Position numbers and translations under genes: made by a program
In this document: piece after piece, positions 17,441 to 36,133 of the stretch
Numbering within the stretch: the stretch's first letter is position 1
Layout of the letters: each line of letters begins with the position of its first letter
Source: Candidatus Poribacteria bacterium
GTDB taxonomy: Bacteria > Poribacteria > WGA-4E > UBA9662
Assembly (NCBI GenBank): GCA_002709695.1
Contig: PAQF01000026.1
Span: 277,396 to 316,059, forward strand
Reading direction: 5' to 3'
DNA length: 38,664 bases
The notes under the pieces: generated by a model
Told to the model about the DNA's origin: nothing
The model's input: the letters and a program-made list of their open reading frames with translations, nothing else
Database searches by the model: none

Positions 17441-19717
17441 CTAACTATTTTGACGTCCTGCTAACCCTTGCAAATATTCACCAATTTTGTCTGCAATCTG
17501 CTTGGCATCCACATCAGCAAAGTCAAAAAGTTCCTTTAGCATTGGAGAAATCGCTCCAGTATCAAGGATGTTGCTGGCCAGCTTGCCCATATTGCTATCG
17601 CTACCACTCTTGCCGTCTGATCCACCCATGTCAAGAATCTTAATAGAATCAATTTTCTCGACAGGTTTCATCAATCGCTCAGCTAAATCAGGTGAGACTT
17701 CTATAAGTTCCAGTAACGCCTCTTGAACAAGAACACGTTTTTCAGCCACATTTCGCGCTTCCAAATGTACCATCTCCCCTGTAGCTTTGGCACGAGCTTC
17801 AGCCAGAACAGCATCGGCCAAACGTTCGATAGGTTGAGCTTGAGCTTCTCCACCAAGAATAGCTACATCCCGTTGCCATTCGGCTTCTCTAACCCGCTGG
17901 GCAGCAGTAACTTCGACTTGTGCTTCTGCACGTTCCGCTTCAGCAAGTAGTTGCCCTTTCTCAGCTATCGCCGTTGTCACCTGTCTATTAGCAACATCAA
18001 TCTTCCGATCCTCGTCTTTGAGTTGAACAACCAATTCCTTATCAATTTGAGATTGTTCGACGGTACGAGTCCTTTCAATCTCTGTCAGTTCAACCTGTCG
18101 TCCCTGACCAATTTGCGCCGTCTCAACTACCAAGTTCTTCTCAATATCACGCTGCTGGACTTGTTGTTCCTGACCAATCTTGGCCGTTTCAACTACCAAG
18201 GTCTTTTCAACGTCTCTTAAGCCTACACCCTCTTCCATCGCAAGCTTAGCACGCTCGACCTCCAACAGCTTCTCCTGCTCACGAATACCAACTATTTCTT
18301 CCTGTGACAGTTTAGCTACATCCACCGTCTGTGTCTTCTCAATCTCTGTCAGTGATACTTGGCGTTCCTGACCAATTTGTGCCGTCTCAACTACCAAGTT
18401 CTTCTCAATATCACGCTGCTGGACTTGTTGTTCCTGACCAATCTTGGCCGTTTCAATTACCAGAGTCTTTTCAATATCTCTTAGACTTACACCCTCTTCC
18501 ATCGCAATTTTAGCACGCTCGACCTCCAACAGCTTCTCCTGCTCACGAACTTCAACTTGCTGTTCCATTTCGATACGTTCCAAAGAAACGACAAGATTAG
18601 CTTCAAGTTCGGCAATCTGAACCTTTTGAGTCTGCTCAATCTGTTTTGTTTCAATGACCAAGTTCTTTTCAATTTCGCGTTCAGCAACTACTTGTTCCTG
18701 TTCAATTTTAGCTGTTTCAACCATTTGCATAGCTTCAATCTCTCGTTCCTGAACAGCCTGCTCCTGCGAAACTCTTGCCTTCTCAACTTCTTGCTTCATC
18801 AGATATTCACGTTCTTGGACATCCTGTTCCATTTCAAACTGAAATTGCAGTGTATCTGCCTCACGTTCAGCAGCATAAATGGCTATATTCTTTTGCTGGT
18901 CAGATTCAGCCCATGCCTGCTCCTGCTCAGCTTCCAGCTTCTGAATCTGTGCTTCAACATCAATCTGAACGATAGCTACTTCCTTTTCCTGAATAATCCT
19001 TTCTTTCTCACGAGCTTGCTCGGCAGTAATTTCAGTAATCGTTCGGATCCCAATTGCATCAAAACGGTTCTCCGTATCCAATGTATCAATCTGTGTTTGG
19101 TCAACTCGAATTATAGATACTGATTCAAGTTTAAGTCCATTTTCCATTTGCAGGTTAACACCAACGGCCTCTTGGACTTTGTCAGCAAACTCTTCCCTTT
19201 TCTGCAATAAATCCTCAATGTCACTCTCAGCAGCCACACTCCTCAAAGCACCTTCAAGCTTCTGTTCAATCAAGTCTCGAATGGTTTCTGGCGTCATATT
19301 CTTATCACCAAGAGATTGAGCAGCCCGTAAAATATCATCTTCCATCGGCTGAACTTGAAGGTAGAAAACAGCTTCAACATCCGCACGATTGAAGTCTGCA
19401 GTAATAAACGCGTCCTGACCTTCACGAAGTATCTCAAGCCTCATAGTGTTGAGTGACACTTCCCTAACTTCATGGATGATAGTGTTCAACCATAACCCAC
19501 CAGTAATATTAATCTTTTCTCCGCTACCTCCAGTTCTGACTAGAGCTACGTCCGCCTTAGGTTTTTTGTAGCGGATCACAGCAGCGATGAACGCCACACT
19601 GATAGAAGAAGCGATAACCAATGAAATAATTAAGGCATTAGCAAATTGCTGTAAAGCAAAGAAGCCAACAGTCCCTGCCACAGCGATAAGAATTAAAATG
19701 AGAGCAATTAAGCGCAT
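17441..19717 (-). CDS. YqiK/flotillin-type SPFH membrane protein with long repeat coiled coil
   Basis: The 758-residue protein starts with two membrane helices (about residues 4-21 and 28-49) and continues with an SPFH/band-7 domain at about 52-225. That domain contains ADVALVRTGGSGEKINITGG and later TIRDLIEQKLEGALRSVAA, closely matching the YqiK group of bacterial flotillins. Residues 304-589 are 13 consecutive 22-residue repeats of the type DIEKxLVVETAxIGQEQQVQ, a predicted very long coiled coil. After that come an Ala/Glu-rich flotillin-type helix with GGEAQAQPIERLADAVLAEA and a Gly/Ser linker to a small terminal helix. Family members scaffold membrane microdomains by forming rings. Four of the repeats are duplicated at DNA level. 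The gene lies 25 bp after the second crystallin gene. Confidence 0.85.
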   Translation of the reverse strand: MRLIALILILIAVAGTVGFFALQQFANALIISLVIASSISVAFIAAVIRYKKPKADVALVRTGGSGEKINITGGLWLNTIIHEVREVSLNTMRLEILREGQDAFITADFNRADVEAVFYLQVQPMEDDILRAAQSLGDKNMTPETIRDLIEQKLEGALRSVAAESDIEDLLQKREEFADKVQEAVGVNLQMENGLKLESVSIIRVDQTQIDTLDTENRFDAIGIRTITEITAEQAREKERIIQEKEVAIVQIDVEAQIQKLEAEQEQAWAESDQQKNIAIYAAEREADTLQFQFEMEQDVQEREYLMKQEVEKARVSQEQAVQEREIEAMQMVETAKIEQEQVVAEREIEKNLVIETKQIEQTQKVQIAELEANLVVSLERIEMEQQVEVREQEKLLEVERAKIAMEEGVSLRDIEKTLVIETAKIGQEQQVQQRDIEKNLVVETAQIGQERQVSLTEIEKTQTVDVAKLSQEEIVGIREQEKLLEVERAKLAMEEGVGLRDVEKTLVVETAKIGQEQQVQQRDIEKNLVVETAQIGQGRQVELTEIERTRTVEQSQIDKELVVQLKDEDRKIDVANRQVTTAIAEKGQLLAEAERAEAQVEVTAAQRVREAEWQRDVAILGGEAQAQPIERLADAVLAEARAKATGEMVHLEARNVAEKRVLVQEALLELIEVSPDLAERLMKPVEKIDSIKILDMGGSDGKSGSDSNMGKLASNILDTGAISPMLKELFDFADVDAKQIADKIGEYLQGLAGRQNS
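17951..18808 (-). repeat. Thirteen 22-codon (66-bp) repeats inside the flotillin gene
   Basis: Residues 304-589 divide without gaps into 13 units of 22 residues. Examples are EQEKLLEVERAKIAMEEG.., DIEKTLVIETAKIGQEQQ.. and DIEKNLVVETAQIGQERQ... Twenty-two residues is two hendecads, which suits an unusual straight or slightly right-handed coiled coil. The repeat is exact in length but diverged in sequence. Confidence 0.85.
18075..18549 (-). repeat. 264-bp period tandem DNA duplication
   Basis: The segments 18075-18285 and 18339-18549 are nearly identical and exactly 264 bp apart, that is four 66-bp units. The stretch CAATATCACGCTGCTGGACT and its surroundings occur unchanged in both. This is a recent in-frame duplication of 88 codons within the coiled coil. 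Confidence 0.85.
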
Positions 19718-19742: not shown

Positions 19743-21182
19743 TCATCTCATGACCGAACGCCAAGCCCCGGAACTCGGTATTGAACGCGATCGCCCCTTC
19801 AACGGTTGGCGAGGTGATGTTTGCCAAGCCAAATTTGCCAAGTAACAGAGAGCATTTTCAATTAGTGTTTTTGCCATTGCCGTTTTCATTGCATCTCGAG
19901 TATCAATTGCAAAAGTAACATAATAACCATCCCCATAACGAAGTTGGAATCCTATGGGAGCGTTATTGTCATCACCATGAATTGCAAGCCTAACATATTC
20001 CTGCTCCTCAGTCACCCAATGATCATCAAGAACTAAAGCATTCACATCTATCTTGTGCGGCCAAGCGAATATGCCGGTTTGATGTCCTTCAGACGTAATG
20101 TTAGCTTTGACATCACCCGCATTCACCACACGGATTGGATGTTGATCGACTGGTAGCCAATCACCACGCCAGCTAGGTTCATGAGTGTGAACCCCATCAG
20201 GCGCCACAATATTGTCATCCATTGCTGATGCCCAAACGACTCCTCCTCGCCTAACAAATTCCCGAATTTCTTGCTCTGAACCTTCAACAAAATACTCACG
20301 ATCATGCGCTGGAGCATTCCAAGTAAACCACACAATATCATACTCAGACAATATAACACTGGAAAGTTTACGAGCATTGTTAGAATCTCCATGGTTATCC
20401 GGGTTTGAGTTGATATTAATAATCGTGTACTCAAACTCGTGACCTTCTACCTCGACAAGCGACTCCAAAACGGCCGGTTCATTTGTACGACTATCAGAAA
20501 CCACGACAAGAATCCGGAAGGAACCAACAGGAACCACTTTTACAGAAGAAACTACGTTTGAAAAAGGTTGAGTAGAACTACGTAACCCCCTAGCATCATG
20601 CAAATTCCGGAGCCTAACTTGAAAATCTCGCGGCCCTAATGGCACAATCAAACGTTGTCCTTCAAAATTGGGTTGCTGGTAAAAGATTGCACGGCAACCA
20701 CCAGAAGGAAAATTTGGTCCACGCTGTATTTGCATTGAAGAAACTGAATTGTCCAGACCAATCTCGCGAAAATCACTTACATCTCGCATAATTACTCCCC
20801 TTTTACCCCGAAAATCGATGTCACGATAAACCTGAACAACAAGTGGAATCGCCCCATATTCTGGAGGTGTGGGATTAGCGGCCGGAGTAAAACTAATTGA
20901 CGAAATGACATCGCCAAAATTATATGGGATTTCGTGGATGCTCGGATAATAACCAGGAGCTAGGATGAGTTTCCTCCCCTGATGATTAACATGCTCATGG
21001 AAGATCGCTTTGTAATTCGGCGCGGATCTAAAACCTGGTCCCTTGTAAATCTTAATAGAAGAAATAATATCTTGAAGCCCTACTTCCTCTGTATTTACAA
21101 CAGAATCAATGACTGTTACCTTGCGTCCTTTATAATTGATGTGTTCAAAAACCTCCACAACCAATCGAGGTGTTAATGCCAT
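19743..21182 (-). CDS. Beta/gamma-crystallin protein with ThuA/glutamine-amidotransferase-like domain
   Basis: The first 210 or so residues hold four Greek-key motifs, each ending in a crystallin signature: DIISSIKI, DVISSISF, NSVSSMQI and NVVSSVKV. In microbial beta/gamma-crystallins the (N/D)(N/D)x(S/T)S motif binds calcium, but several copies here have lost one acidic residue. Residues about 225-455 form a class I glutamine-amidotransferase-like fold of the ThuA type: RILVVVSDSR, YDIVWFTWNAPAH, EIREFVRRGGVVWASAMDD and ALCYLANL. No obvious Cys nucleophile elbow is visible, so enzymatic activity is doubtful. There is no signal peptide. The N-terminal half is a clear paralogue of the upstream gene, 24 bp away. 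Confidence 0.8.
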   Translation of the reverse strand: MALTPRLVVEVFEHINYKGRKVTVIDSVVNTEEVGLQDIISSIKIYKGPGFRSAPNYKAIFHEHVNHQGRKLILAPGYYPSIHEIPYNFGDVISSISFTPAANPTPPEYGAIPLVVQVYRDIDFRGKRGVIMRDVSDFREIGLDNSVSSMQIQRGPNFPSGGCRAIFYQQPNFEGQRLIVPLGPRDFQVRLRNLHDARGLRSSTQPFSNVVSSVKVVPVGSFRILVVVSDSRTNEPAVLESLVEVEGHEFEYTIININSNPDNHGDSNNARKLSSVILSEYDIVWFTWNAPAHDREYFVEGSEQEIREFVRRGGVVWASAMDDNIVAPDGVHTHEPSWRGDWLPVDQHPIRVVNAGDVKANITSEGHQTGIFAWPHKIDVNALVLDDHWVTEEQEYVRLAIHGDDNNAPIGFQLRYGDGYYVTFAIDTRDAMKTAMAKTLIENALCYLANLAWQTSPRQPLKGRSRSIPSSGAWRSVMR

Positions 21183-21206: not shown

Positions 21207-22592
21207 CTAAACTAGGTCCCGCACTGCACGTGCTCTCTGTTGCTGATCTAGTCTTTGCCTTTCGTAATCGGTCATCTGATGAGCGCTCTGGGCCATTCTG
21301 AGACCATATTTAGTCGCTTCACCCCTACGCTTAAACAGGCGAAAATACTCAAAACGGGTAAGAGTAGGTGGGATGTTACCAGGGCAGAGTGTATGCAATC
21401 CAACTTGAACGGGATCTCCCATACCAACATTTGTTTGCCCACAACTCAACCAGCGAGAACCATCGGGACTCGCGTAACCCAGAAATTGGTTGCCACGCCT
21501 TTCAAGCCTGAGATAAAGTTCTCTAACATTAACCAAACCGGCCCCCCGTCCAACCAAGGAATAAACACGATTCACATGTCTTTCAAATCTAACATCGCCT
21601 CTAAAACCATGCGGCCCTGAAGTTTTCTCGAGACGAACAAATGAATGAGGACCTTTCCAAACAATAAGCCCTCCATGCTCTTTCAAATCAGGAGAAACAC
21701 GAATCCGGCACTCAATGGCAAAGTCGCCTGAGACATCCATCAACAAGCGGGGCGCATCCATGTTACCTCCACTACCTGGAGGGCTACCATGCCAAAGATC
21801 CTGCCCTGGGTCAGCACGCATCTCCAAGTACCCTTGTCGCTCGGACCAAGCCCCACCACCACCGGGATCCTCCCATCTCCACTCCGGTCGCATTTCATTG
21901 CCGATAAATTCATCTTCAAATATAATCTCGTTAAACTCGGAGGACGAGGACCAACCCTCTATTTTAACGGAAGAGACAACATCATTGAAACGACCTGGAA
22001 GAAAAGCAAAATTTGGTATTTCCTTCTTATAATCCATGGGTTCCATTCTTATGGAAAATTGGGCACCTTCAAAATCAACGTGTTCGAAAAACATAACGTT
22101 CGCTCCCTCACGTGGAAAATCTGGCCCCTTGAATATACGAACAGAAGAAATCATATCATGTAACCCAAGATTTCCTGTATGTGCAACATCACGCAAGATA
22201 GTTATCTTTCGACCTTGAAACTCCGCATGCTCATAACATTCAACAATCAGTGGCACTGTCCCCCACTCGGGCCCAGCCGTGTCCAAGACAGAGGCAAACC
22301 CTATCGAAGAAATATTATCCGTAAAATTATATATCATATCATGCAGATTAGGATAAAAACCTGGCCCAAGTGCAAGCTTCCGCCCTTGGAAATGCCAATG
22401 CTCATGCAAAATAGCCTTATAATTAGGATTGGATTTGAAGTTAGGGCCTTTGTAAATTTTAACCGAAGAAATGTTATCCTGAAACCCTATGTCAGCAGTA
22501 AAACTGACAGGCTCGAAAACATACCCTCTTCTACCACCAAAATTAGTATGTTCGAAAACCTCAACGATGAGACGTGGTATAACAACCGGCAT
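21207..22592 (-). CDS. Beta/gamma-crystallin protein with DUF1349/LamG-like C-terminal domain
   Basis: The first 210 or so residues carry four Greek keys with calcium-type signatures DNISSVKI, DNISSIGF, DMISSVRI and DVVSSVKI, better preserved than in the paralogue. Residues about 228-415 resemble a concanavalin-like DUF1349 domain: EDEFIGNEMRPEWRWEDPGG, then FAIECRIRVSPD, GGLIVWKG, FLGYASPDGSRWLSCGQ and VQVGLHTLC. A charged helical tail rich in Arg and Gln ends the protein. No signal peptide is present. It is the first gene of the four-gene unit. ATG 22592 is backed by GAGGC eight bases upstream and a strong promoter, with a leader of about 50 nt. Confidence 0.8.
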   Translation of the reverse strand: MPVVIPRLIVEVFEHTNFGGRRGYVFEPVSFTADIGFQDNISSVKIYKGPNFKSNPNYKAILHEHWHFQGRKLALGPGFYPNLHDMIYNFTDNISSIGFASVLDTAGPEWGTVPLIVECYEHAEFQGRKITILRDVAHTGNLGLHDMISSVRIFKGPDFPREGANVMFFEHVDFEGAQFSIRMEPMDYKKEIPNFAFLPGRFNDVVSSVKIEGWSSSSEFNEIIFEDEFIGNEMRPEWRWEDPGGGGAWSERQGYLEMRADPGQDLWHGSPPGSGGNMDAPRLLMDVSGDFAIECRIRVSPDLKEHGGLIVWKGPHSFVRLEKTSGPHGFRGDVRFERHVNRVYSLVGRGAGLVNVRELYLRLERRGNQFLGYASPDGSRWLSCGQTNVGMGDPVQVGLHTLCPGNIPPTLTRFEYFRLFKRRGEATKYGLRMAQSAHQMTDYERQRLDQQQRARAVRDLV

Positions 22593-22742: not shown

Positions 22743-25421
22743 TTAGCTTACGGCCCTTGCTTGAAGTTTGTAAATCAAATTCAGTGCATCCATCGGTGTT
22801 AGTTGGTTTAGATCAAGATTCTGGAGTTCTTCAACAATTGGATGCGTTTTAGGGGTAAACAACGCCATCTGAAGAGAGTCATCTTGAAAGGTTTTTCGTG
22901 AAACTCGCTTCCTTTTGTGCGGGATACCTCTGGTTACCAAGTCAGGAAGAGGAGCAGAAGCGTCTTCTGATTGGTTACTTTCTACAGATAGGTTATGTTG
23001 CTCAAGTACAGCTAAGATCTGATTAGCTCGATCAACAACAACTTGTGGTAATCCTGCAAGCCGTGCCACATGGATTCCATAACTTTGATCAGTACCTCCC
23101 TCAACGACTTTGCGTAAAAACGTGATTTTTTCACCATCTTCATGCACTGCAACATTGTAGTTTTCGACATTATCATATTTGTTGGCCAGTTCGATTAACT
23201 CATGATAATGTGTGGCAAATAAGGTTTTAGCACCAATCTTTTTATCATCAAGGATATATTCTGCCACAGCCCAAGCAATACTCAAACCATCAAAAGTGCT
23301 AGTTCCACGACCGATCTCGTCAAGAATAATCAAACTCTTAGAGGTCGCATTATTAAGAATATTTGCGGTTTCATTCATTTCAACCAAGAATGTGCTCTGC
23401 CCCATCACAAGATTGTCCGACGCTCCAACACGTGTAAAGATCCTATCAACCACACCAATTTTAGCTTTTGATGCCGGTACAAAACATCCTACTTGAGCCA
23501 TCAATACAATTAGAGCTGTTTGACGAAGATAAGTCGATTTGCCACTCATATTTGGACCGGTAATGATATGCATTTGTTGATTGGTACAATTGAGTTCTGT
23601 ATTATTAGGCACAAACCCCTCTCCAGTAAATAATTGCTCTACCACAGCATGGCGGCCATTATCGATGATTAAATCACTACTATCATCGATAATTGGCTTT
23701 GAATAATCATATTTTGAAGCAATGTAGGCAAAATTAGCAATCACGTCAACCATCGATATAGCAGACGCGATTTTTTGTATACAATTGGTTCGACTGGAAA
23801 CCTGATTCCGTATATCACAAAAAAGATCGTATTCAAGCTGATGAATTCGTTCTTCCGCATTCAGAATCTGTGACTCACGCTCTTTCAAATCCGGCGTAAT
23901 GAACCTCTCAGAATTGGTCAATGTTTGTTTGCGAATATAGTGATCAGGTACAAGGTCAAGATTAGGTTTAGTGACGTCAATATAGTAACCAAAGACTTGG
24001 TTATAACCAACCTTCAACGAATTAATGCCCGTCCGTTCACGTTCACCTTGTTGTAATTCAGTTATCCAGTCCTTGCCAGACAACGTGATTCCTCTTAGAC
24101 TATCAAGTTCTTCACTGTAACCATCTCGTATAATGTTTCCTTCCTGAATAGTTACTGGAGGTTCTGGATGAATCGAATTATCAATCAGATCCGCTAAATC
24201 TGTCATAGGATCAAGCTTGTGATTCAGATCCGCTAAAAACAAGACGGAACAATCTTCAAGTTGAAGTTTAACTGATGGAATAAGTCTCAGAGAATCTTTC
24301 AATGCCAATACTTCACGTGCATTCGCCGTCCCAAGGCTAATACGCGAGATTAGGCGTTGAATATCGTACATCTGTCTTAATGCATCACGCAGCTCTTCTT
24401 GTAGTACAATCCGGCTCTTCAGCTCATCAACAGCCTCAAGCCTTTGATTAATTAAGTCCGTTTTTAGATGTGGCTGAAGAAGCCATTGTTTAAGACAACG
24501 TGCACCCATTGAAGTCATAGTCTGATCCAGCATTTCCAACAAGGTCCCTTTTGATGAACCATCTCGCATAGATCGTGTCAATTCAAGATTCCGTAGAGTA
24601 TCTGCATCTAATACCATAAAACTATGGTTGGTATACGTGCGAAGCGATTGAATGTGCAGGACTTCTTGTTTTTGTGTCTCATGGAGATAGTAAATCAATG
24701 CCCCAGCTGCACATGTTGCTGCTGGCATATTCTCACACCCAAAACCATCAAGTGAAAGAATACTAAAATGATCAAGTAATTCAGACCGAGCTGATTGGTG
24801 ATCAAAACGCCAGTCTGGAAGATAGTTAACTGTAGCCTTGAGTTCGATATTAATTTGATCCAAAATCTCCTGATTCTCAAAATCTTCGGAAAAGAGACAT
24901 TCCGCTGGGCCAATACGGTTAACTTCCGACCAGAGGCCTGATAGATCCTCTAATTCTGTAACAGCAAACTCTCCAGTGGAAACATCGACCGAAGCAAGGC
25001 CATAGATAGCCCCAATTTGATGAGCAGAAATCAGGTAATTATTAGACTTTTGGTCTAGAGCGCTTGAGTCCGTTACTGTGCCAGGAGTAACTATGCGAAC
25101 AACATCCCGCTTGACCAGTCCTTTAGCCTGTTTGGCATCCTCCATCTGTTCAACAATCGCAACTTTGAGTCCTTCTTTTACAAGTTTGTAAAGATGCGAA
25201 TCCAACGAATGATGTGGCACCCCAGCCATGGGTATAGAAGTACCCGCAGTATTCTTGTCTCTGGCAGTAAGAGCGATTTCCAACACCCTCGAAATTGTCT
25301 CAGCGTCCTCGCCAAACGCCTCATAAAAATCACCGACGCGACATAAAACAATCGTATCTGAGTATTGGTCTTTGACACGATTGTATTGTTGCATTAAGCT
25401 GGACTTTTTTTTCGTGCCCAC
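22743..25421 (-). CDS. mutS: DNA mismatch repair protein MutS
   Basis: An 892-residue MutS of normal length. The mismatch-reading motif is visible as GDFYEAFG (Phe32-x-Glu34). The ATPase has Walker A GPNMSGKSTYLRQTA near residue 625, Walker B SLIILDEIGRGTSTFDGLS and the ATHYHELIEL motif. The clamp and lever helices lie between them. Near the C-terminus SLQMALF looks like a sliding-clamp-binding motif, and the last 25 residues match the tetramerisation helix region. The start is GTG 25421; ATG 25394 is a shorter alternative. It recognises mismatches and hands over to MutL, which is not in the window. Confidence 0.96.
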   Translation of the reverse strand: MGTKKKSSLMQQYNRVKDQYSDTIVLCRVGDFYEAFGEDAETISRVLEIALTARDKNTAGTSIPMAGVPHHSLDSHLYKLVKEGLKVAIVEQMEDAKQAKGLVKRDVVRIVTPGTVTDSSALDQKSNNYLISAHQIGAIYGLASVDVSTGEFAVTELEDLSGLWSEVNRIGPAECLFSEDFENQEILDQINIELKATVNYLPDWRFDHQSARSELLDHFSILSLDGFGCENMPAATCAAGALIYYLHETQKQEVLHIQSLRTYTNHSFMVLDADTLRNLELTRSMRDGSSKGTLLEMLDQTMTSMGARCLKQWLLQPHLKTDLINQRLEAVDELKSRIVLQEELRDALRQMYDIQRLISRISLGTANAREVLALKDSLRLIPSVKLQLEDCSVLFLADLNHKLDPMTDLADLIDNSIHPEPPVTIQEGNIIRDGYSEELDSLRGITLSGKDWITELQQGERERTGINSLKVGYNQVFGYYIDVTKPNLDLVPDHYIRKQTLTNSERFITPDLKERESQILNAEERIHQLEYDLFCDIRNQVSSRTNCIQKIASAISMVDVIANFAYIASKYDYSKPIIDDSSDLIIDNGRHAVVEQLFTGEGFVPNNTELNCTNQQMHIITGPNMSGKSTYLRQTALIVLMAQVGCFVPASKAKIGVVDRIFTRVGASDNLVMGQSTFLVEMNETANILNNATSKSLIILDEIGRGTSTFDGLSIAWAVAEYILDDKKIGAKTLFATHYHELIELANKYDNVENYNVAVHEDGEKITFLRKVVEGGTDQSYGIHVARLAGLPQVVVDRANQILAVLEQHNLSVESNQSEDASAPLPDLVTRGIPHKRKRVSRKTFQDDSLQMALFTPKTHPIVEELQNLDLNQLTPMDALNLIYKLQARAVS

Positions 25422-31155: not shown

Positions 31156-33480
31156 TTATTCCCTGCTCAACACCTCAATCTCAGTTAGAATCTTATCGAT
31201 GTCTTGATTGACATCACTTTCCTGATTGAATTCTTCCACCTGTTTATCATCAAGACCCTGAATCGGATCCTCGTCTTCATGGCCGCCATCAACTATGTCC
31301 ATAGCAACATCATCAATGCCCAAGCTGTCAGCATCAACTATATTTTGGATATCTGATAGGAATTTCCCTATATACCAATCTATTCCTTCATCTTCTGACT
31401 GCTGTGTTGGTTCATCTATCTGCTGTTTGTTTGAAGTTTCGGTCTGCACTGTTGCAACAGTATTATTCCTGACTTCAATTTCTTCCTCATCTGGTGAGGT
31501 GATGATGTCACTATCAGAATGCACTTCGCTTATAGTAGCCAAGGACTCATCTTCAGACATAGGATCTTCTACCTCCACATCTGAATTAATACTAGTATCT
31601 TCGATAATATCTGGTTCTGCACTGCCCGTATTCTGATTTTCCTCATTTCCTATTTGCTGATTTGACAGAACATTATCCTGATTGGATTCTAAAGTATCTT
31701 TTGTCTCTACTGTCCCCTCCGAAATTTCGTTTTCGGAACCGAAGCCAGCAGAAACTTCTTCAGAACCGAGTGTAACCTCCTCTACCATTGGCTTGATAAC
31801 ATTATCAAAATCTTCGAGTTCTAATGACTCTGATTCCGCTGATAAATCAGCAAAAGCGTCGTCATTACTAACTTTCTGATTTAAATTACCATCTACTGGT
31901 TTGGTACCCTCAGGTTCAACTGGTAGGGCCAACACTTCACCTTGAGCATGAACTGTCGGTGTCCCTTCAATACTTTGCGTACTTGAACCTTCTAGATCTT
32001 GTTGTTTTTTTTCAGCTGTATTAGGAATTGGTTTTTGCTCTATTTTTTGTTGGTCAGGAACTCCCAGTTTTTTTTGTTTTGCAATAATACTATGTAACTC
32101 CGAAATTTCTGCACGTGGATTAATTTCAATTTCATTTCCTGTTTCATCGTCTGTTTCACCGTCTTCAACTTCATTCCGAGTCGACCTCCTGCGCAAAAAG
32201 ACAAAGAGCAAAAGGACGATACCTCCAATGCCAATACCACCCGAAATAACTGAAAACAACATCCAAACAGGAAATTGAGACATCTCCAATTCAACTGTAC
32301 GAATTGGAGGATTAGTAATATAGTCTCGGCTTGGATCAATAATGAATTTGTGTTTACCCGCTTCTTTGGGTACGTATTTCGCCACATATAGAGTTTGATC
32401 AGAAGTCTGAAGAAAAACTATTTCTTCTTCCACCCCCTGTCGAATTACTTTGCCATGAACCTGATTAAATGAATGCTTACCTGCCACTAAACGAATCTGC
32501 AGGTCTATTTCACGTCCAGTTACATAGCTAAGAGGTGGTGGTACAAACTCGAGCTGACCTATAGAGACACTTGGCTTTTCCTTTTTAAAAGCCAATAACT
32601 CTACTTGATTACGATTCTCAAGTGAAACCTGCCAATATCCAAGAGAGGGTTGTGGAATCCAATAAGAGGTACAATAACTAGTTTCAAAATAGGGAAAGAT
32701 ATGATTCCCTTGCGAATCCTTGATTTCAATCTCAGGTTTTCGCTTTTGGGATGAAGTAAACTGCAGTTCTAAATTCTCTATCCTTGGATCGTGCAGAAAA
32801 ATATGTTGCTTGGATACAATTTTCTTCTGTTCATACAATTGGTACCCATCTATATCATTCACAGCATACAAAAACGCAGTCAACAGATTATTATGGGATC
32901 GTTTCTGGCCATTGGATACAGAAATTGACTTATCCTGATAAGTCGTTAGAACAAAGCTCTTACGATTAGAACTGTTTTTTAAGAATTGTTTCCACTCTTC
33001 TCTCGTAAATTCTGCTTTATCATCAGTTATTAAAATTAGTGCCTGAGGTTCACTGGAGGACATACTTTGGAACGTCTTTTCTGCACTAAATAATGCCTGG
33101 CTGAGAATTCCACCTTTCTTTTCCTTCTCATTGAAAGGCACAGATAATTTACGCTCCAACTGAGACTTCTGTTCAATACTACCAATAATTTGTGTTGGTC
33201 TAATAACAGGTAAAACGGAATCAGCAAATCCCATAACACAGACCCACTGACCAATTTGAAGGCGATTTACCAAAATTTCGGCTGACGACCACCTCCATTT
33301 TTGTATGTCCGTCATGCTCATACTTTTAGAGTTATCAATCAGGAAAATGATACTTTGGAATTCTGAGTCACCAAAGCACCAAGAATCAAAAGAAAAAAAT
33401 AAGCAGAAGATAAAAAGGGAGAGGGTAAGAAAACGGATGGCAATCAAAATACGATGAGGGCATGAACGGACACTCTTCAT
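31156..33480 (-). CDS. Membrane-anchored VWA-domain protein with long acidic tail
   Basis: The 774-residue protein starts with a signal peptide or anchor (about residues 11-36). A von Willebrand A domain follows, with the metal site DNSKSMS (Asp49, Ser51, Ser53) and the later ILITDD. The usual MIDAS threonine is not obvious in KKGGILSQAL. Residues about 310-400 look like an Ig-type beta sandwich (GREIDLQIRLVAG, YVPKEAGKHKFIIDP). A membrane helix at 404-429 is followed by RRR and a tail of some 345 residues rich in Glu, Asp, Ser and Asn, probably disordered and cytoplasmic. VWA proteins with this layout resemble BatA-like or MoxR-associated proteins. It follows a small unknown gene by 43 bp. 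Confidence 0.75.
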   Translation of the reverse strand: MKSVRSCPHRILIAIRFLTLSLFIFCLFFSFDSWCFGDSEFQSIIFLIDNSKSMSMTDIQKWRWSSAEILVNRLQIGQWVCVMGFADSVLPVIRPTQIIGSIEQKSQLERKLSVPFNEKEKKGGILSQALFSAEKTFQSMSSSEPQALILITDDKAEFTREEWKQFLKNSSNRKSFVLTTYQDKSISVSNGQKRSHNNLLTAFLYAVNDIDGYQLYEQKKIVSKQHIFLHDPRIENLELQFTSSQKRKPEIEIKDSQGNHIFPYFETSYCTSYWIPQPSLGYWQVSLENRNQVELLAFKKEKPSVSIGQLEFVPPPLSYVTGREIDLQIRLVAGKHSFNQVHGKVIRQGVEEEIVFLQTSDQTLYVAKYVPKEAGKHKFIIDPSRDYITNPPIRTVELEMSQFPVWMLFSVISGGIGIGGIVLLLFVFLRRRSTRNEVEDGETDDETGNEIEINPRAEISELHSIIAKQKKLGVPDQQKIEQKPIPNTAEKKQQDLEGSSTQSIEGTPTVHAQGEVLALPVEPEGTKPVDGNLNQKVSNDDAFADLSAESESLELEDFDNVIKPMVEEVTLGSEEVSAGFGSENEISEGTVETKDTLESNQDNVLSNQQIGNEENQNTGSAEPDIIEDTSINSDVEVEDPMSEDESLATISEVHSDSDIITSPDEEEIEVRNNTVATVQTETSNKQQIDEPTQQSEDEGIDWYIGKFLSDIQNIVDADSLGIDDVAMDIVDGGHEDEDPIQGLDDKQVEEFNQESDVNQDIDKILTEIEVLSRE

Positions 33481-33523: not shown

Positions 33524-33988
33524 TCAGCGGCTTACTATCTTTTCCAGAACTCTCTTAGAAATCGACAAAGTTGTTTCAACGGGTACTTGTTTGCCAGACT
33601 CCGTTACCAACACAGCAATATCATCAATGCTGAACAGGAAATTATTATCGGCTTGCCACACTAATCCATTGAAGATTTTTGTCGGATCAGTATATGGCTG
33701 GTAAATCGGTTCACGCTTTCCATTTACTATCACACTCCTGCTAGAAAGACGTGTTCTCCCCTCCTCCACAGCAATTCTTGCATCTTCCTCCGATTCAAAC
33801 AACCAGTAGTTGATAGCAAGATTTTGCCCCGGTTTTCCCTGCAACCACCATCGGTCACGCCATCCAATCACACAAGAAGGGGCTTTCGGTGACGATGGCG
33901 AGTAAATCTGCTGCACTGAGGATAAATAAGGTCGATAATCATGCAGATCACTTTCTGTTAGCCGAATTGATTCTAATGTAATAGGCAT
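33524..33988 (-). CDS. Conserved-looking hypothetical protein
   Basis: The 154-residue product has no signal peptide or membrane segment. Aromatic motifs WRDRWWLQGKPGQN and INYWLFESEEDARIAVEEGR suggest a small alpha/beta fold of the dimeric-barrel kind, in which a monitored value is followed by an amphipathic helix; this is only a resemblance. I do not recognise a family. It is the first gene of a two-gene unit with the VWA protein. Upstream on the minus strand a weak TTGTTG-17-TAGAAT pair may be its promoter. Confidence 0.6.
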   Translation of the reverse strand: MPITLESIRLTESDLHDYRPYLSSVQQIYSPSSPKAPSCVIGWRDRWWLQGKPGQNLAINYWLFESEEDARIAVEEGRTRLSSRSVIVNGKREPIYQPYTDPTKIFNGLVWQADNNFLFSIDDIAVLVTESGKQVPVETTLSISKRVLEKIVSR

Positions 33989-34414: not shown

Positions 34415-36133
34415 TTGCAGTTCCGTGCTAATTCCTCTGAGTTACTGAAAGCCATTCAAGCTCTGCAATCAAGAGCAGGTGCGCATAATCGATTGAACAA
34501 GTTGTCCCATGTCGACTTCCGTTCATTGGAAAATAACAAGGTTGAGATATCAGCTAGGAATATCCTAGCTGATGCAAAAATCCTTATCGATGCTGTAATT
34601 GTCTCTTCTGGGGCATCTAAAATCCCTATTTTCTGGCTCAGTAACACTATTCGTCAAGCGAACTCTGAAAGCATTGAAATTGAATCTACGGGAAGTCAAC
34701 AGATCCAAGTCACTTGTAATAACCAAGTTCACACTTTTAGTGCCACCGACCATCAATCTTCCGCTATTATCTTAGCAACAAATTGGTTAGATAAAAAGAA
34801 TTGGAAAAGAACCTCACCAGCATTCACAATTTCATTCATCGCCCACATCATTTTTGTGATTTATATTGCATTGACAATAAAAACTAAAGTACCTAGCGAA
34901 TCCATCCCCATCAATATGATAAATGCTCCTCTTCCGACTATTCGCAGGGTAAAAAAACCAATTGTGGACCGTGTTCAACGACGGGTCACGCTTAAACCAT
35001 CATTACGCAAGACTCCTCAACCCCAAGTGCAGATTACCGCTCCAACTCAAGTTGCAGAAACAGCTAAATTATCTGCAGCACCAATACACCAAAATTTTTC
35101 TCGCAACCCAGAGTTACCTGACAGAATCCCGGACCCAATGTCAACTACAGCAAAACTGCCGGCAAAAACCAGGGAATATACACTAAAGCGATCTGGAGGA
35201 TCTCCAACTAAAATTAAAAGTGGCTCAGGGTTAAAAACTGGCCGGTTTCGTGCCCAAAGCCAAGGACGAAAAGACTCAAAAGGAATCTCATCTATTCTCG
35301 AGACAACAGGTGCAACCGATTCGGCAAATCTATCAGCATCAAAATTTCAGGATTTAATAAAGGTACCTGATAACCGGCTTGGCGCTATCATTGTCGGTCA
35401 GGGCAAGGACGTACAAGGACACATCCGATTGATTCGTCTCAAGCATTCCCTCTCAGACTGGTGGCAGGACCCAACCGCAATTCCAAGTTTTATGACATGG
35501 CTAGGTGATCATACGCGATTAAAAGCAGATATGAAGTTCGCCGGTGGAGCCCTACCACTAACAGACAAAAAAATATTGGACGCTCCCATCATTTTCATGA
35601 CGGGGCATGATAAAGATATCACAGTAGGACGTAACATGGTAAAGGGGGGCCCCCTAACCGATGGATTCAGTCCGGAAGAACGAGCCGCTTTACGGGAATA
35701 CCTAGTCGAACGTGGTGGAATGCTTTATTTTGATGATTGTGGTTTCAACGGTCTTTTCGCCAGGCAGGTCGAGTTCGAACTCGGCCAAATCCTTCCTGAA
35801 TACCCACTCGAAAACATACAATACAACCACGAAATTTATAAAGCTTACTACGAACTTTCAGTACCTCCTAATGGTGGCGATGTATATTGGGGAAGTGAAA
35901 ACAAACCGAAAGCCACAAAATTCAGGTTTCATAAAGGAATTACAATTGGGCGGCGGTTGGCTGTAGTTTATAACCGAAAAGATTATATGTGTGCCATGGA
36001 AACGGCAGAAATTAATAGCCGAACCATGTTACGTATGCGGAGGTCAGCAGACGTACACCGTTTTATGACAAACCTACTGTTTTATACAATGAAGTACGGA
36101 GGTAATGTAGATCGGTCACAATATAAAAATTAA
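34415..36133 (+). CDS. DnaN-domain-like/TonB-like anchor/DUF4159 fusion protein
   Basis: This 572-residue protein shows three parts. Residues 1-113 read like domain 1 of the DNA polymerase III beta clamp: MQFRANSSELLKAIQALQSR, then LSHVDFRS, VEISARNILADAKI, SGASKIPIFWLSNTIRQ and IQVTCNNQVHTFSATD fall in the same order and spacing as in DnaN. Residues 136-156 are one membrane helix (FTISFIAHIIFVIYIALTI). Residues 157-320 are a basic, Pro/Thr-rich linker of TonB type. Residues about 322-565 form a DUF4159 domain (DWWQDPTAIPSF, APIIFMTGHD, LREYLVERGGMLYFDDCGF). DUF4159 has a glutamine-amidotransferase-like fold of unknown activity, often near MoxR/VWA genes; a VWA gene is divergent here. The start is TTG 34415, with AAGAAGGAT 15 bases upstream. 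The clamp assignment is by eye. Confidence 0.75.
   Translation: MQFRANSSELLKAIQALQSRAGAHNRLNKLSHVDFRSLENNKVEISARNILADAKILIDAVIVSSGASKIPIFWLSNTIRQANSESIEIESTGSQQIQVTCNNQVHTFSATDHQSSAIILATNWLDKKNWKRTSPAFTISFIAHIIFVIYIALTIKTKVPSESIPINMINAPLPTIRRVKKPIVDRVQRRVTLKPSLRKTPQPQVQITAPTQVAETAKLSAAPIHQNFSRNPELPDRIPDPMSTTAKLPAKTREYTLKRSGGSPTKIKSGSGLKTGRFRAQSQGRKDSKGISSILETTGATDSANLSASKFQDLIKVPDNRLGAIIVGQGKDVQGHIRLIRLKHSLSDWWQDPTAIPSFMTWLGDHTRLKADMKFAGGALPLTDKKILDAPIIFMTGHDKDITVGRNMVKGGPLTDGFSPEERAALREYLVERGGMLYFDDCGFNGLFARQVEFELGQILPEYPLENIQYNHEIYKAYYELSVPPNGGDVYWGSENKPKATKFRFHKGITIGRRLAVVYNRKDYMCAMETAEINSRTMLRMRRSADVHRFMTNLLFYTMKYGGNVDRSQYKN

Follow-up and report, generated by a model that had tools for sequence, protein, structure and literature searches.

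Sliding-clamp domains are known as components of rings on DNA, and in the DnaN dimer domain I meets domain III. In phage T4, the late sigma factor gp55 is paired with the clamp gp45. In Escherichia coli TonB, Ser16 and His20 of the Ser-x3-His motif contact ExbB (PMC12215075). GltG of the Myxococcus gliding machinery has a cytoplasmic FHA domain before a TonB-like transducer that binds AglR, and AglR is a motor subunit of the ExbD/TolR type (PMC3169522).

Here we describe a protein that combines a clamp domain with a TonB-type anchor. It is encoded in a stretch of 38,664 nucleotides of a Candidatus Poribacteria genome (the window), by an open reading frame with a TTG start (34415-36133, +) that gives a fusion protein of 572 residues. 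Its coordinates and domain order agree with a previous annotation made from the letters alone (the sequence-only reading). We could confirm the order, which runs from clamp domain I through a cytoplasmic junction and a single TonB-type helix to a Pro/basic linker and DUF4159, as follows:

34415..34750 (+), domain resembling domain I of DnaN (beta clamp), residues 1-112 (hhalign, PF00712 in orthologues, AlphaFold and Foldseek)
34751..34816 (+), basic junction, predicted cytoplasmic, residues 113-134 (pLDDT below 50 for 114-133; KKNWKR before the helix)
34817..34885 (+), TonB-type transmembrane helix, residues 135-157 (S140-x3-H144 motif and flanking charges)
34832-34834 and 34844-34846 (+), codons of S140 and H144, the Ser-x3-His motif of the helix
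34886..35362 (+), Pro-containing, basic, disordered linker, predicted periplasmic, residues 158-316 (composition and pLDDT)
35363..36130 (+), DUF4159 domain, residues 317-572 (PF13709 and Foldseek)

Identity of the domains

The sequence-only reading had taken residues 1-113 for DnaN domain 1. This could not be decided from the window sequence alone because the Pfam and PDB single-sequence searches gave nothing useful: the N-terminus had no Pfam hit at E<=1, with nothing reliable ahead of DUF4159, and the window protein as a single query retrieved nothing useful among the PDB sequences. Homology to DnaN emerged only through orthologues and profiles. The orthologue in G021 matches PF00712 over residues 1-113 (E 2.4e-8, 34.6 bits versus a cut-off of 24.4), that in G005 barely reaches the same cut-off (24.6 bits), and NCBIfam TIGR00663 (dnaN) matches the same N-terminal stretch of the orthologues. 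Using an alignment of the five orthologous N-termini (window, G001, G002, G005 and G021) as the basis of a profile, we obtained a profile-profile match with domain I of Poribacteria DnaN in hhalign (P=99%, E=2.1e-18). Domains II (E 0.28) and III (E 0.049) were rejected as the source on this comparison. When the alignment was searched through 85 Poribacteria genomes, dnaN genes were found and the register was always that of domain I.

Structure prediction gave the same picture. AlphaFold models residues 1-111 at a block-mean pLDDT of about 82-96. In the full-length model the values are about 89-96 across residues 1-110, and the clamp domain alone, modelled from a six-sequence input, reaches a mean pLDDT of 87 and a pTM of 0.80. 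DnaN clamps account for 49 of the best 50 Foldseek matches of the modelled domain (TMq 0.70-0.81), a fold test that partly depends on the sequence test because AlphaFold has seen DnaN. By profiles, orthologue Pfam match and predicted fold, the assignment of residues 1 to about 112 to DnaN domain I is confirmed. The first refutation named in the sequence-only reading, a profile search placing residues 1-115 outside the DnaN superfamily, was put to the test, and the outcome favoured its claim. The normal dnaN whose presence it had suggested verifying was detected elsewhere in the same genome (G000:C19; 370 residues, three domains).

The KKNWKR stretch lies immediately N-terminal of the helix, and the net charge on this side is +3. 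Among 45 aligned proteins H144 is invariant and S140 is found in 41. Over 15 flanking residues the mean charge is +3.8 on the N side and -2.2 on the C side, and since it is higher on the N side in all 45 proteins, an N-in topology is predicted. With this charge distribution the clamp domain would be cytoplasmic and DUF4159 periplasmic. The single N-in helix of the TonB type and the sidedness of the two domains, both proposed in the sequence-only reading, thus gain support. Besides an ExbB-ExbD-ExbD cluster (G000:C43), the genome encodes other proteins of the MotA/ExbB type and three with TonB_C; none of these genes adjoins the fusion gene. Elsewhere, at L189 (4248-5228, +), an ExbB-type protein encoded ahead of two ExbD genes has a long N-terminal extension that by eye comprises a signal peptide and a carboxypeptidase-regulatory-like region.

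The linker of 159 residues contains 16 Pro, 29 K/R and 11 D/E, and pLDDT is below 50 over residues 182-312. DUF4159 itself, also recognised in the sequence-only reading, is matched by PF13709 over residues 338-559 (E=1.8e-27, 96.6 bits versus a cut-off of 25.9). At the C-terminus Pfam detects only PF13709, and TonB_C (PF03544) is absent there. The nearest solved structure, and best Foldseek hit, is 4i66 (Hoch_4089; E 2.5e-10, TMt 0.80). Our search of the open-access literature found no paper that mentions DUF4159 by name.

Distribution and conservation of the fused clamp domain

The full-length fusion is present in five genomes from four genera and two families (the window genome, G001, G002, G005 and G021), so the domain order of the window protein recurs in four further genomes. 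Its nearest relative, in a genome of the same genus, shares 88% identity. The other 54 relatives searched have TonB-DUF4159 proteins without a clamp domain; their best match starts at about residue 104 and their ORFs begin shortly ahead of the helix. Our contig scan for relatives comprised 80 loci among the matches listed, all in Poribacteria.

These late starts, together with the TTG codon and its Shine-Dalgarno-like stretch at a distance, could point to an annotation artefact, in which the true start would lie after residue 120 and the upstream frame would be accidental or a decayed neighbour. We consider this extremely improbable. The frame is free of stops in five independently assembled genomes, the clamp fold is modelled with confidence, and the start codons of the five fusions (TTG, GTG, ATG, ATG and ATG) align with Met1 of DnaN. 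Ka/Ks between the window and G001 is 0.139 for the clamp domain, 0.128 for the linker and 0.017 for DUF4159. The clamp domain is under purifying selection, with a constraint far weaker than that on DUF4159. An accidental upstream frame is ruled out by this omega and the conserved starts, and the artefact is refuted in substance. The sequence-only reading had named relatives with a DUF4159 protein starting after residue 120 as evidence against itself. Such starts are literally found in most relatives, but they do not refute the claim because the domain is in-frame, conserved and under purifying selection in five genomes. The architecture is genuine and apparently new to the literature. In agreement with the previous statement that no such protein was known, we found no description of clamp fusions, of TonB with DnaN, or of an ECF sigma factor with a clamp in the open-access literature.

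Between genera the fused clamp domains share 23-38% identity, with fold and length kept. The clamp-domain tree, in which long branches were flagged, separates them from all DnaN sequences as a single clade (100/100), which suggests a single old capture of the 5' part of dnaN and makes a single origin likely. In the best tree built from the C-terminal region that all share, the fusions are split over two places, but a single clade is not rejected (p-AU 0.114). The patchy spread over three families may reflect loss or transfer. The third family is represented by a decayed copy in G076, in which one frame holds the clamp domain and another the linker with the beginning of DUF4159, while the remainder of DUF4159 is missing:

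L181:4527-5572 (+), decayed clamp-TonB-DUF4159 copy (frame change after the clamp domain, DUF4159 truncated)

An integrase-like ORF is encoded downstream of this copy (L181 6003-6962, -).

Around the five fusion genes we found no neighbours shared between genera; neighbours are retained only within the same genus. An assembly accident at one locus does not explain the fusion, because its copies occupy different neighbourhoods except in the same-genus pair. Beside the fusion gene, in the window and also in G001, are a membrane protein that has a VWA domain and ends in a long acidic tail (31156-33480, -) and a small protein that matches nothing in Pfam (33524-33988, -), neither of which is kept beside the fusion in the other genera. 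Further away in the window, two adjacent proteins start with a beta/gamma-crystallin domain (19743-21182, - and 21207-22592, -), and this pair adjoins a flotillin/Band 7 protein (17441-19717) and MutS (22743-25421).

Comparing the six fused domains (decayed copy included) with 12 Poribacteria DnaN at 41 invariant domain-I positions, we found 30 of these lost in at least five of the six, including G23, R24, T47-D48-L49-E50, K73 and K107. Seven are kept in at least five of the six (M1, L10, Q15, Q18, L27, L30 and G65). The conserved sets G23-R24-N25, L27-P28-I29-L30 and T47-D48-L49-E50 that characterise DnaN are not preserved in the fused domains. Invariants specific to the fusions are K12, A60 and Q104, of which Q104 lies at the edge strand. 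To these the five intact copies add an Arg or Lys at position 20. Surface conservation draws on two to six sequences from four genera, too few for a reliable map. Instead of three tandem clamp domains, the protein has domain I alone, followed by the membrane helix, and with domains II and III absent there is neither a ring nor a peptide cleft. Because 30 of 41 DnaN-invariant positions are lost despite the kept fold, the fused domain is very unlikely to function as a clamp; a dimeric ring around DNA, or processivity, with one domain is unlikely. Judging from these alignments, the kept fold, the lost positions and the new invariants together form the pattern expected when a fold has been recruited to a different function.

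Possible roles of the fused domain

With moderate confidence, we propose that the protein is a TonB-like, ExbB/ExbD-coupled transducer whose borrowed clamp fold serves for docking or regulation in the cytoplasm. The gene product would be an inner-membrane transducer similar to TonB/TolA, in which DUF4159 takes the place of the TonB C-terminal domain, and a minority of Poribacteria would have gained a domain derived from DnaN domain I at the cytoplasmic N-terminus. The Ser-x3-His helix would dock onto a proton motor of the ExbB/ExbD type, a coupling suggested by the motif and by the encoded ExbB/ExbD. The long linker probably spans the periplasm, and DUF4159 may bind or act on an envelope partner. 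The former clamp fold would serve for self-association or for capture of a cytoplasmic partner, and the residues most likely to form the new contact are K12, A60, Q104 and Arg/Lys20. This proposal builds on the architecture, the domain-I specificity, the purifying selection and the loss of most DnaN-conserved positions, all of them established by comparison of sequences and predicted structures. Against it, the gene neighbourhoods of the five fusions give no hint of a partner, and by our reading the C43 ExbB has no obvious counterpart of the Trp with which E. coli ExbB contacts TonB His20.

As the protein of most relatives works without a clamp domain, the domain may be dispensable or passive. 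A captured 5' fragment of dnaN could simply form a folded N-terminal plug that affects topology, expression or stability and has no partner of its own. The missing domain in the 54 clamp-less relatives, the much weaker constraint relative to DUF4159, the fast evolution between genera and the decay in G076 would all fit such a plug, but fold and length were kept over four genera despite this divergence, omega is well below 1 and the fusion-specific residues are invariant. We find the plug doubtful. That the domain binds DNA or anchors the nucleoid at the membrane has little probability. The fused domain is less acidic than DnaN domain I, with a net charge of -2 to +2 compared with -3 to -8, and all five intact copies have an Arg/Lys on helix 1; however, this charge is only near neutral, five of the six rows lack the R24 conserved in DnaN, and a single domain is unable to encircle DNA.

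The sequence-only reading had also suggested that the domain tethers replication or repair proteins to the envelope. Domain I would then still bind proteins associated with the clamp or, at a dimer interface that has opened, domain III of the genuine DnaN. Such tethering is conceivable because domain III is contacted by domain I in the clamp, and it is specifically domain I that was fused; the interface edge strand is retained as a hydrophobic strand with the new invariant Gln104, and the cell also has a normal DnaN. The majority of the DnaN-invariant positions are lost, however, among them the G23-R24 loop as well as K73 and K107, which lie within the interface or beside it. Clamp-binding peptides could not dock in the usual way without the domain II/III cleft, and no adjoining replication or repair gene conserved between genera was found. 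Replication tethering has no specific support, and we judge it unlikely. The other suggestion of the sequence-only reading, that the domain was co-opted to bind something else, is the better fit. Its interpretation as a whole is partly supported.

Other clamp fusions and comparison with known systems

The clamp-domain profile search of the phylum also surfaced other DnaN fusions. In one Poribacteria family, at least 11 genomes encode a protein of 575-603 aa that joins an ECF sigma factor (regions 2 and 4) to a whole DnaN with all three domains. DnaN is also fused to FtsZ (tubulin and FtsZ_C), and an ECF sigma-FtsZ fusion was found through FtsZ:

L165:2179-3906 (-), ECF sigma-DnaN fusion
L166:2004-3746 (+), ECF sigma-DnaN fusion
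L167:3784-5511 (-), ECF sigma-DnaN fusion
L168:1056-2789 (-), ECF sigma-DnaN fusion
L169:2823-4556 (-), ECF sigma-DnaN fusion
L170:1675-3483 (+), ECF sigma-DnaN fusion
L171:2998-4809 (-), ECF sigma-DnaN fusion
L172:2791-4521 (-), ECF sigma-DnaN fusion
L173:2129-3862 (+), ECF sigma-DnaN fusion
L175:2241-3968 (+), ECF sigma-DnaN fusion
L177:1634-3391 (+), ECF sigma-DnaN fusion
L176:2426-4507 (-), DnaN-FtsZ fusion of G046, 693 aa
L199:1030-2907 (-), DnaN-FtsZ fusion of G071, N-terminal part beyond the end of the stretch or contig
L197:949-2604 (-), ECF sigma-FtsZ fusion of G030, 551 aa

The ECF sigma-DnaN genes at L165 and L177 adjoin a gene for a MacB/FtsX-like permease. G046 and G071 each encode a separate FtsZ, G046 also has a separate dnaN, and a second FtsZ gene is present in G030. 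None of these three kinds of fusion was described in the open-access literature that we searched. Several genomes of the family with the ECF sigma-DnaN fusions carry dnaN in two or three tandem copies, for example two at L178 (1533-2642 and 2817-3920) and three at L180 (2514-3635, 3698-4804 and 4835-5938).

The window protein is a clean case of a replication fold reused: one third of a clamp was moved into an envelope protein of the proton-motor type and stayed under selection while its clamp surface was lost. With whole clamps fused to ECF sigma and FtsZ in the same phylum, direct physical links between replication, transcription and division would become testable. It is a long shot that the anchored domain binds its own DnaN or another replication protein and couples replication to an envelope apparatus driven by the proton motive force, with Poribacteria repeatedly recruiting clamp domains for signalling (TonB, ECF sigma and FtsZ).

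The ECF sigma-DnaN fusions resemble gp55 and gp45 of T4, a clamp-activated late sigma factor, as one polypeptide. The window protein shares with DnaN domain I (PF00712) the fold, the order of strands and helices, the length and the start at Met1, and its profile match is specific to this domain, but it has one domain of three, no ring and a membrane protein fused to it, and most clamp-conserved positions are lost. Its TonB-anchored DUF4159 counterparts in other Poribacteria have the same helix, linker and DUF4159, with about 44-53% identity over the shared part, whereas they start just before the helix, without the clamp domain. With TonB and TolA it has in common a single N-in helix with Ser-x3-His, a long basic, Pro-containing linker and a C-terminal domain predicted to be periplasmic; it differs in having DUF4159 instead of TonB_C and a folded N-terminal domain of about 112 residues instead of a short tail. 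Among the designs described so far, GltG is the nearest, as it also places a folded cytoplasmic domain ahead of a TonB-like membrane transducer, although with FHA rather than a clamp fold, with TonB_C rather than DUF4159, and with a motility cluster that is not found at the fusion gene.
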